From assembly GCA_030610255.1 (NCBI GenBank), contig JAUWSB010000006.1:1-32374 (forward strand): a stretch of 32,374 bases of DNA, written 5' to 3'. Below are positions 6,534 through 24,070 of the stretch, piece after piece (positions within the stretch are counted from its first letter, which is position 1; every line of letters begins with the position of its first letter). This DNA is from Bacteroidota bacterium. GTDB lineage: Bacteria; Bacteroidota; Bacteroidia; Bacteroidales; JADFUO01. A model generated the notes under the pieces. It worked only from the letters and a program-made list of their open reading frames with translations, was not told the DNA's origin and searched no databases. The position numbers were made by a program, and so were the translations under genes.

Positions 6534-6717
6534 ATAAATTACTTTGGTTGTTATTTATAAAATCTCAAAGGTCAAATTATAAATTATTTATTCTTAACAC
6601 AGTAATATAAAAACTTCAATAAAAATATTCTTTATTCAAAAGAAATAATATCAGAATAGCACCACGCTTTAGTGCAATGTTGTTATGTTAAGCTATAAAA
6701 TTCTGATTTAGTGCATA

Positions 6718-6792
6718 TCAGATTAGCACCATGCTTTAGCATGGTGGACTAATACCATTCAACCAAACCTGTAGCCCGCTTTAGCGGGCTTC
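6718..6792. repeat. REP-like palindromes, left side of transposase
   Basis: CACCATGC-ttta-GCATGGTG at 6727-6746 and AGCCCGC-ttta-GCGGGCT at 6773-6790. A degenerate copy (tcagaatagcaccacgctttagtgc) lies at about 6651-6675. Confidence 0.85.
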
Positions 6793-6797
6793 TATGT

Positions 6798-7232
6798 TCA
6801 ATCATCAAAAATGCCATATTCTTCTTTCCATTCATTATATTCTTCAGTAAATGTTTTTCTTTTGTGATGTTCCGATTGATTTTGTATATATGTTTTTACT
6901 GCCTGTAATTGTGATGCACTCACAGAGTATGCTCCGTAACCCCGTTGCCACGAAAATTTTGCTTTTAATATTTTATTCTCGTTTATCCAATGCGATGATG
7001 AACCTTTAATGGTTTGCATAAAGTCAGCTAAACATATATTTGTTGGTAAATCAATTAATTCGTGAACATGTTCGGGCTGAATATTAAGTTGTTCAAAAGG
7101 AATATTTATTTCTTTTGATTTATTCAGTAAAAAATCAAATACTTGTCGCCCTGTTTTTTTAAACAAAATTCGTTCACGATTTTTTGTTGCCCAAATAGTA
7201 TGAATCCAGATACGTGTGTGTGAATGTTTCAT
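6798..7232 (-). CDS. REP-associated tyrosine transposase (IS200/Y1-like, TnpA_REP/RAYT)
   Basis: 144 aa; HUH motif in EHVHELIDLP, catalytic-Tyr region VKTYIQNQSEHH, RIWIHTIWATKNRERILF N-terminus. Flanked by REP palindromes. Confidence 0.9.
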   Translation of the reverse strand: MKHSHTRIWIHTIWATKNRERILFKKTGRQVFDFLLNKSKEINIPFEQLNIQPEHVHELIDLPTNICLADFMQTIKGSSSHWINENKILKAKFSWQRGYGAYSVSASQLQAVKTYIQNQSEHHKRKTFTEEYNEWKEEYGIFDD

Positions 7233-7259
7233 TTTTTTAAAGTTTTAAATGTTATTAGA

Positions 7260-7480
7260 AGTCCGCTAAAGCGGACTAATAAATTTTATTTACTTAATTA
7301 GTCACCATGCTAAAGCATGGTGCTATTCTGATAATCAACATGTTACGCTTTAACATAATGACATTATGCTAAAGACTGCCTACCGTCAGGCAGGCATAAT
7401 ACTATTCTGATATTCAACGTATTACGCCTTAACTTAATGAAATTATGCTATCCCGAAAGCTTTCAGGATGGTGCTATTCT
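7260..7480. repeat. REP-like palindrome array, right side of transposase
   Basis: AGTCCGC-taaa-GCGGACT (7260-7277), CACCATGC-taaa-GCATGGTG (7303-7322), then degenerate copies repeating ctattctgat. Orientation is inverted relative to the left side. Confidence 0.8.
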
Positions 7481-8499: not shown

Positions 8500-8684
8500 T
8501 CCTTAATACCATAAAATTTGAAATGTCGTATTAATAAAAAAAAAGGCTAAGGCTCCATACAGACTCCTTTCAGTCGTAAGGATGGGGAGGCAAAAATTTA
8601 ACTCGGATAAAATTTAATCAAAGGCAGATTATTAGTTTCAAGCCGCTTACCAGCTAAACTTATAATGAAATAATTACATATAAC

Positions 8685-10644: not shown

Positions 10645-11037
10645 ATGACTAAAGATGACCATATAAATTATTGGGTGAAGACTGCTGAAAATGATTGGGA
10701 TACTGTTAACTATCTTTTCAAAGGGAAAAAATACGTTTACTGCTTATTTTTTGCACATCTAACGTTGGAGAAACTTATCAAAGCACATTGGGTAAAGGAC
10801 AATGAAGATAATTACCCACCCAAAACGCATAATTTGGTTTATTTGTTAAGCCAAACAAATCTTGATTTTAATATGGATGAAATAAAATATTTAGAAAAAA
10901 TTAATGATTTTCAAATTGAGGGTAGGTATCCTGATTATTTAATGAAAATTAATAAAATCACTAATTTGTCTTTTACAAAATCAATTTTAGATAAAATTAA
11001 AACAATCAGAAAATGCTTGATAGAAAAGTTGCAATAG
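10645..11037 (+). CDS. HEPN domain-containing protein
   Basis: 130 aa; ENDWDTVNYLF, CLFFAHLTLEKLIKAHWV, FQIEGRYPDYL. Overlaps the following MNT ORF. Confidence 0.88.
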   Translation: MTKDDHINYWVKTAENDWDTVNYLFKGKKYVYCLFFAHLTLEKLIKAHWVKDNEDNYPPKTHNLVYLLSQTNLDFNMDEIKYLEKINDFQIEGRYPDYLMKINKITNLSFTKSILDKIKTIRKCLIEKLQ

Positions 11038-11339
11038 AAAAAGTTGATAACTTTATTAAAGAAATAAAATTGTCAGGATTAAATATAAAAAGAGCCATAT
11101 TGTTTGGCTCATTTGCAAAGGGTAATCAACGTGAATATTCTGATATTGATGTTGCTTTAGCTGCAGATGAATTTATTGGTTTTGGTTTTATTGATAGAGA
11201 TTATTTTGCAGAAATCAATATCAAGGACGAATATATGCTCATTGAAACCAAAACCTATCCCACCGATTATTTTGAAAAAGGCGACCCATTTATTGATGAG
11301 ATAAAAAAGACAGGAATTGAGATAAGAATTAACCATTAA
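11013..11339 (+). CDS. Minimal nucleotidyltransferase (MNT) protein
   Basis: GSFAKGNQREYSDIDVAL = GS-X10-DxD nucleotidyltransferase motif. Overlaps the upstream HEPN ORF by 25 nt. Confidence 0.9.
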   Translation: MLDRKVAIEKVDNFIKEIKLSGLNIKRAILFGSFAKGNQREYSDIDVALAADEFIGFGFIDRDYFAEINIKDEYMLIETKTYPTDYFEKGDPFIDEIKKTGIEIRINH

Positions 11340-11671: not shown

Positions 11672-11801
11672 GCCCGCATGGGCCCGTATGGGAAATTCGA
11701 AATTTGGAAAAAACTTTTTTTAACAGCCTAATTTCAAATTTCTAATTTCTGAACATGAAGTACTAATATTATTAAAAATTAAGCTTTAAATAATTATCAT
11801 C

Positions 11802-23437: not shown

Positions 23438-24070
23438 CGATCAGAATAAACTGTGTTTTAATTCAGTTTATTTATTGTGTGTGCCTTGAATGGTAAAGGT
23501 AGAAATAATATTGTTAATAGCAATAAAAGTTCTTTAATTTAATAGGGTGTAAGTCCCTTCCTTCGGCTATGCTCAGGACAGGTATGCGCCGGTAACATAT
23601 TTTCCAGGAAAGGAAATAAGGAGGCATCCGTACGGACAAGTTTGGAAAAAGCCGAACAAACGAATGAGAAGTTTTATAAGATTGGGCATTCCGTCCAGAC
23701 GGACTTCCTACGGTCGAAAGGACAAGCTTATTCTTGGTCTCGTTCATCCCGAAAGCTTTCGGGAGGCGGTTGGGCAATTGCTCAAAGTCCAATGATGAGA
23801 ACAACCGTAACACTTGAAAGACTGAAAAGGAGAGGTTATTTTTCTTTTTCAGAGCAATTTCAGAAATCACACCGGTCAGAGTCAAATGAGACACAGCTCG
23901 AAATTTCTTTTGCCTGCCTTGTCGGCAGACAGGTCTAATGAACCGCTCCCGAGCACTCGGAAAGACCCATATCCCGAAAGTTTTCGGGAGTGGTGTGCCT
24001 GCCCCGTAATGAAATGTATCGGAGAGAGGCGCACTGGCCCGTATGGGTCAGCCGCCTCGATTGTAAAACG
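23430..24070 (-). other. attC-like recombination site S3, interrupted by an intron
   Basis: GGCTACAACGATCAG-AATAAACTG-tgttttaatt-CAGTTTATT-TATT [intron 23477-24062] GTAAAACG. Joined site is about 57 bp with perfect 9-bp arms. Confidence 0.75.
23477..24062 (+). ncRNA. ORF-less group II intron-like element (attC-targeting type)
   Basis: 5' GTGTGTGCC; GGGTGTAAGTCCC motif at about 23545; domain V-like AACCGCTCCCGA...TCGGGAGTGGTGTG (11 bp including the catalytic-triad G.U); 3' GAGAGGCGCACTGGCCCGTATGGGTCAGCCGCCTCGAT domain VI-like hairpin. Ends map exactly into an attC-like site. Boundaries uncertain by 1-2 nt. Confidence 0.7.

Follow-up and report, generated by a model that had tools for sequence, protein, structure and literature searches.

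A dispersed 18-bp palindrome of Bacteroidota that is gained at new sites by replacing target nucleotides

The 18-bp palindrome TCCCGAAAGCTTTCGGGA, here called P, is dispersed in Bacteroidota genomes, varies by compensated changes, and has been gained at new sites, where its arrival replaces part of the target. Usually 3 to 6 nt are lost, and sometimes a complete hairpin top. The flanks remain intact, and the target duplication of ordinary transposition is absent. P prefers hairpins and repeats. We started from a 32,374-nucleotide stretch of a Bacteroidota assembly (the window). The original prediction for it was that tiny palindromes in the hairpin loops of unrelated elements represent an invasive palindromic element targeting hairpin tips. 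The invasive character was borne out by many unrelated contexts, by empty counterparts, and by one clear orthologous gain. Copies placed at random relative to hairpins, or a lack of empty counterparts, would have spoken against it; we checked for both and found neither.

Palindromes in the window

The relevant features of the window are listed below; where no strand is given, none was assigned.

6717 to 6746, minus strand: empty REP
6798 to 7232, minus strand: Y1 (IS200-like, RAYT-type) transposase gene, 144 aa, flanked by REPs (PF01797, 90.8 bits)
7303 to 7332, plus strand: empty REP CACCATGCTAAAGCATGGTGCTATTCTGAT, a hairpin plus conserved foot
7374 to 7393: GACTGCCTACCGTCAGGCAG, the second micro-palindrome; it occupies the 3' side of a REP loop, which reads ATTATGC TAAA, insert, GCATAAT
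7451 to 7468: P copy with one change, TCCCGAAAGCTTTCAGGA, inside a REP, where it replaces AAGCA between GCTA and TGGTG
11683 to 11692: CCCGTATGGG, within an intergenic repeat module
23538 to 24060 (limits approximate), plus strand: probable 5' fragment, decayed, of a group II intron with several micro-palindromes, from alignment to the copies in G001 and G003
23559 to 23578: third micro-hairpin, TCCTTCGGCTATGCTCAGGA, missing from the G001 homologue L033
23747 to 23764: perfect P copy, TCCCGAAAGCTTTCGGGA, from a mismatch-tolerant search
23912 to 23932: CCTGCCTTGTCGGCAGACAGG, a clean 21-nt insertion, from comparison of intron copies
23946 to 23960: P-like hairpin TCCCGAGCACTCGGA, missing from other intron copies
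23972 to 23989: P copy TCCCGAAAGTTTTCGGGA, also in the G001 copy L017 and missing from L027 and L038
24038 to 24047: CCCGTATGGG in an intron hairpin, CACTGG..CAGCC, whose tip is TCCGTACGGA in L027 and different in L038

All of the palindromes that had been noted are present, but two lie one base away from their first placement: TCCCGAAAGCTTTCAGGA had been put at 7452 to 7469, and the second copy of CCCGTATGGG at 24039 to 24046. We confirmed CTGCCTACCGTCAGGCAG at 7376 to 7393, and positions 23911 to 23933 read TGCCTGCCTTGTCGGCAGACAGG. The CCCGTATGGG at 11683 belongs to another module, CCCGCATGGGCCCGTATGGG, than that of the intron hairpin. Palindrome occurrence is far above chance. With up to 3 mismatches allowed, the window contains three matches to the 18-mer TCCCGAAAGCTTTCGGGA, against none in any of 100 dinucleotide shuffles.

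The REPs around the Y1 gene form a clean Y1-associated REP family in Bacteroidota. Their layout in the window is CACCANNNTAAANNNTGGTG plus CTATTCTGAT, and the stems co-vary elsewhere in the genome. The empty unit CACCATGCTAAAGCATGGTG (7303 to 7322, and 6727 to 6746 on the minus strand) is adjacent to filled REPs. Two window REP loops hold micro-palindromes, one being P and the other GACTGCCTACCGTCAGGCAG, and a second REP on another contig (C103, L282) has P at the same junction as the window REP. The co-variation of the REP stems is strong, CACCA-NNN-TAAA-NNN-TGGTG, with the foot CTATTCTGAT fixed (window 6717 to 7332; L280, L282, L288, L291, and L292). Farther along, at 10645 to 11339, a HEPN-domain gene is followed by an overlapping nucleotidyltransferase gene. 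This is a HEPN/MNT-type pair, a common toxin-antitoxin layout.

The palindromes do recur in a group II intron, as first thought, but their host there is probably a decayed 5' fragment. We assign it as such because its homologue L027, from a genome of the same genus, runs on into an adjoining match to RF01999 (group-II-D1D4-2, 60.9 bits). For the same reason, the hairpin around CCCGTATGGG that had been called terminal is probably an internal one, and an assignment of the piece to domains V-VI was dropped, since the homologous copy continues into D1-D4. A Rfam search of the window, including its intron copy, gave no match at gathering scores, and weak matches to CRISPR-DR43 and ROSE_3 were judged to be chance. 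The fragment carries P twice, together with CCTGCCTTGTCGGCAGACAGG, TCCTTCGGCTATGCTCAGGA, and TCCCGAGCACTCGGA, and most of these sites are empty in at least one homologous copy. The CCTGCCTTGTCGGCAGACAGG site, for example, is empty in L017, L027, L035, and L038, where TTTTG directly joins TCTRATGAACC, and filled in L018 and L036.

Copy number and spread

We used TCCCGAWAGCTWTCGGGA as the search form of P. The genome-wide count of exact and near copies that the original prediction had called for gave 46 copies of TCCCGAAAGCTTTCGGGA and its compensated variant TCCCGATAGCTATCGGGA in the 2.32-Mb assembly (at most 2 mismatches), and 0 in the reversed control. Both arms change together from GAAAGCTTTC to GATAGCTATC; other compensated changes are TCCC..GGGA to CCCC..GGGG and, at the centre, AGCT to AATT. 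The two P forms were the only perfect palindromes in the DNA sampled from this genome, a sample picked for P and therefore biased.

The search form was found in 15 of 60 relatives. Genomes of the same genus had 22, 3, and 17 copies, and one genome from another family had 46. Across the phylum, 56 of 396 sampled genomes contained it, and the reversed control was 0 in each. Within a single genus (121 species sampled), the count ranged from 0 to 69 per genome. That genus is very probably Flavobacterium, because named Flavobacterium loci share its P contexts. Among the matches listed, the named genomes are nearly all Bacteroidota, with a few Armatimonadetes and Verrucomicrobia. An apparent outlier is a "groundwater Armatimonadetes" MAG with several P copies (L076, L119, and L138). 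TCCCGAWAGCTWTCGGGA is also present in 37 viral contig stretches. It was not found in print in the literature that we searched.

Other micro-palindromes occur in viral contigs as well. The family of GACTGCCTACCGTCAGGCAG is represented by 52 viral contig stretches, including tRNA genes. The CCTGCCTGCCGGCAGGCAGG family (L336 to L387) behaves like P, with copies in tRNA loops and heptamer-like repeats and several copies per contig. One of its members is inserted in a D-loop (L381) and another in the variable loop of a tRNA-Met that ARAGORN still recognises (L367).

Comparison of filled and empty sites

We accepted an empty counterpart when at least 20 of 24 positions were identical on each side, and overlaps were allowed down to -16. 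In the sequence at hand, 25 of 244 P sites had a closely matching empty counterpart. Empty versions, for which a test had been proposed, thus do exist, and they come from the genome or array that also holds the filled site or from sister genomes. The replaced stretch was 3 to 6 nt at 20 of these 25 sites (exactly 4 nt at 11) and 9 to 31 nt at the others. No target duplication was found at any of the 25, even with overlaps to -16. Many P copies share a common MITE or REP background and are therefore not independent events; the pairs comprise about ten clearly independent families.

Three pairs have flanks identical at 48 of 48 positions. P replaces AGT in a tandem array (L114), AGAA in L107/L057, and GGGTTA in phage contigs (L188/L203). 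It stands in place of TGCT/AGCA at the MITE sites and, by direct comparison, of AAGCA in the REP loop and of the T-loop ATT in a tRNA-Met fragment whose intact gene lies in the same locus (L150). The coding site L154 is an exception, with an apparent clean insertion. Insertions into hairpins, for which a test had been proposed, were found, but P takes the place of 3 to 6 nt of the target instead of only splitting it. With 18 nt gained and 4 lost, a typical event adds 14 nt, or two heptamers.

There are also three clean replacements of a whole hairpin top, namely, an 81-nt stretch, a 17-nt anticodon arm, and the inner hairpin of a MITE. The 81-nt case lies next to a tRNA gene, in the sister genomes G376 and G653, which are near-identical on both sides of the locus. 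G653 reads AACCGCAA-81 nt-TTGCGGT, and the 81 nt can form a long hairpin, at -31.3 kcal/mol with DNA parameters. G376 reads AACCGCAA-P-TTGCGGT. Because other congeners and species keep the long hairpin form, the P state in G376 is derived, and this locus (L231) is one clear orthologous gain of P. At L237, P exactly replaces the 17-nt anticodon arm CTTGCCTGGCAGGCAAG in a partial tRNA-Ala copy that adjoins the intact gene. Short MITE forms carry P instead of the inner AAGCACC..GGTGCTT hairpin. The rpmD-rplO spacer has P in the present genome (G000) and a different hairpin in G002, and the whole insert is missing in G001 and G003. An 11-bp direct repeat, CCTCAGCCTTA, borders the G002 hairpin (L256), CGACTGAAAGGAGTCCGTATGGAG, and this module is found again near window positions 8550 to 8590 and in L012.

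Target preference

Most P copies of this genome are in a MITE-like repeat with the ends GTCTGTCCATAAA...TTTATAGACAGAC, and others are in REPs, the intron fragment, a heptamer array, and spacers. In other genomes, P is found at the tips of terminator stems (L141, L166, L214, and L242). It also occurs at the tip of a helix, CCCCG..CGGGG, in an RNase P RNA gene (L091, 246 bits), in tRNA-like genes (L087, L150, L156, L182, and L237), in heptamer-like direct-repeat arrays (L056, L064, L090, and L152), and nested within P-like palindromes (L175 and L084). P further lies in frame inside protein-coding genes, whose products we take from the translations to be a receiver domain, AroA, RNase HII, and a glycosyltransferase. 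In aroA, it contributes about 8 residues at a variable loop. A search for a close empty orthologue of this aroA found none. Orthologue searches for L242 in its genus matched only its own genome. For L251, relatives matched only along the right-hand flank.

To measure the preference, we took 195 non-redundant sites outside this genome and matched every left flank against the right flank of the same site and against those of other sites. A stem score of at least 6 was reached at 21 sites, against a null of 4.6 ± 2.1 (maximum of 11 in 300 shuffles). Stems were present at 10.8% of true sites and at 3.3 to 4.9% of centres shifted by 15 to 60 nt. Direct repeats, often heptamer-like, were more strongly enriched, with a score of at least 8 at 26 sites against 2.0 ± 1.5 (maximum of 7). 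Neither a clear stem nor a direct repeat was found at 135 of the 195 sites. The predicted targeting of hairpin tips is thus upheld in part. The stem enrichment and the precise cases in RNase P RNA, tRNA arms, terminators, and REPs make tips a real target, but a minority one, at some 10 to 20% of sites. As the sole target rule it was rejected, given the 135 sites. Among the 43 copies of this genome there was no excess of flanking stems, probably due to the common MITE background.

The bases next to P are not random. T is rare in the adjacent position (5%), 74% of sites have a pyrimidine as the third base, and the commonest junction bases are G..T. A Watson-Crick pair flanks P at 34 of 201 sites, about half of the expected 64.5 ± 6.3. 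Across the sites outside this genome (L061 to L255), a flanking mismatch is far commoner than chance.

Discussion

We suggest that P is a mobile element without genes, that it replaces its target, and that its hairpin may be captured at cut tips or small gaps. As a joint explanation of the data, this has in our judgment an even chance of being right. The mechanism that we prefer is one in which a hairpin fragment becomes captured where a hairpin has been cleaved or a small gap exists. In this scenario, a short hairpin-shaped nucleic acid with a 7-bp stem and an AGCT loop would be released from existing P copies. The sites of its capture would be hairpins that have lost their tip, or gaps of a few missing nucleotides, such as might arise through SbcCD-type hairpin cleavage or at stalled replication. 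Joined to both sides, the P hairpin would "cap" the break, and replication would fix the stem-P-stem arrangement. Existing repeats (REP, MITE, and intron) would then carry P along. Hairpin cleavage cannot be the only entry route, because the 135 sites lack a flanking stem or direct repeat. One observation argues against capping: P flush on a paired stem is predicted, yet the adjacent Watson-Crick pair is rarer than expected (34 versus 64.5). We put forward only tentatively, and with somewhat less confidence than the joint explanation, the wider proposal that a gene-less 18-nt hairpin is the mobile unit across the phylum, moves by hairpin capping in place of hairpin tops or of 3- to 6-nt gaps, and that unrelated micro-palindromes (CCTGCCTGCCGGCAGGCAGG and others) do likewise in other bacteria and phages.

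P might instead move through an RNA intermediate, with its hairpin joined or copied next to the loops of structured RNAs such as tRNA, RNase P RNA, terminators, and the intron and then reverse-transcribed into the genome, a route already proposed for the SDRs of cyanobacteria and for hairpin elements of mitochondria. Several targets are indeed structured RNAs with P in their loops or arms, the second palindrome also occurs in tRNA D- and variable loops, and the common junction bases G..T would form a G-U pair in RNA. However, many sites lie in heptamer arrays or in repeats that do not look transcribed, and a loss of 3 to 6 nt is not obviously expected, so we regard this route as unlikely, though the most serious competitor. 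It is distinctly improbable that P is a nonautonomous REP-like element that owes its movement to a Y1 transposase (HuH, IS200/RAYT-type), for instance the one encoded at 6798 to 7232. That gene adjoins P-containing REPs, and HuH enzymes act on single-stranded hairpins. However, P lacks the REP layout of a hairpin plus conserved foot in inverted pairs, and its targets lose nucleotides. Moreover, three genomes of one genus have 39, 11, and 9 P copies and no PF01797 match (G631, G609, and G584), whereas two others of that genus have 8 PF01797 matches and no P (G602 and G675). The Y1 transposase as a required agent is therefore not supported.

P could also be a mere passenger, spread by gene conversion or recombination between MITEs, REPs, and heptamer arrays after very few true insertions. 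Most copies in this genome are indeed found within a single MITE family or within REPs, and two REPs have P at the same junction. This account is incomplete, because P occurs in unrelated single-copy sites (RNase P RNA, tRNA arms, aroA, the receiver domain, and terminators), and the orthologous gain in G376 also speaks against it; we rate it no higher than the Y1 explanation. A perfect 18-bp palindrome with conserved arms, sometimes in terminator stems (L141, L166, and L214), might be an immobile binding site or terminator hairpin kept by selection. The precise presence or absence relative to empty sites, the in-frame copies in enzymes, and the range of 0 to 69 copies among congeners make this very improbable. 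An assembly or sequencing artefact would be conceivable for a fragmented, 77%-complete source assembly, but P is also present in single-contig genomes and in named isolate genomes, and with a reversed control of 0 the chance of this is negligible.

Of the known systems, P is closest to cyanobacterial SDRs and mitochondrial hairpin elements, and it differs from them in sequence, size, and target loss. The SDRs of Nostoc are reportedly tiny, dispersed, hairpin-forming repeats with compensated changes. They are said to comprise eight sequences of 21 to 27 nt and to occur in heptameric repeats and mini-transposons and nested in one another. As far as these descriptions go, P is similar in its dispersal as identical or compensated short hairpins (46 copies) and in its presence in heptamer-like arrays, in a MITE, and in nested positions. 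The same descriptions set it apart, as P has 18 nt rather than 21 to 27 and belongs to another phylum. SDRs of Nostoc and relatives are treated in PMC3116915 and PMC4390886, which cite Elhai et al. 2008, and the second of these articles places SDR5 precisely between nt 3 and 4 of HIP1 (PMC4390886). In such accounts SDR insertion is precise and without target loss, whereas P replaces 3 to 6 nt (20 of 25 sites) or hairpin tops.

P shares with REP/REPIN-RAYT systems (PMC3116915 and PMC3733652) the form of short dispersed palindromes, and it lies inside REPs by a Y1 transposase gene. It differs in having neither a conserved foot nor inverted doublets, in being abundant in some Y1-free genomes, and in its occurrence within coding sequence. 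MITEs have terminal inverted repeats, a target-site duplication, and a length of 50 to 500 bp. The host repeat GTCTGTCCATAAA...TTTATAGACAGAC is MITE-like, unlike P itself, which has 18 bp and no duplication. Rickettsia palindromic elements are palindromic and can sit in frame in proteins, as P does, but they are longer, about 100 to 150 bp, and belong to another phylum. We know of no hairpin-top replacement by them. The mitochondrial GC clusters and hairpins, such as yeast GC42 (PMC4478555), the sponge RHE (PMC2800124), and the Volvox palindromes (PMC2670323), resemble P in being selfish, in nesting and shuffling, in their conserved stems, and in their presence in introns and rRNA genes. They are organellar, however, and about 30 to 50 nt long. 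Direct repeats of AG or ACT border the yeast GC clusters. P, in contrast, takes the place of target bases, and its flanks show no constant repeat but only a weak preference for certain bases (-1 not T, -3 pyrimidine).

If P is mobile as we read it, it is among the smallest mobile DNA known. Replacement of hairpin tops, with target loss and without duplication, is an unusual signature that would tie palindrome mobility to hairpin processing. Hundreds of natural P events are available in genera that can be cultivated, Flavobacterium and Mucilaginibacter among them, and may offer a handle on the spread of SDR-like and mitochondrial hairpins. New terminators, RNA helices, and in-frame peptides may also arise from P, and hairpin capping, if true, would remodel RNA genes, terminators, proteins, and other mobile elements.
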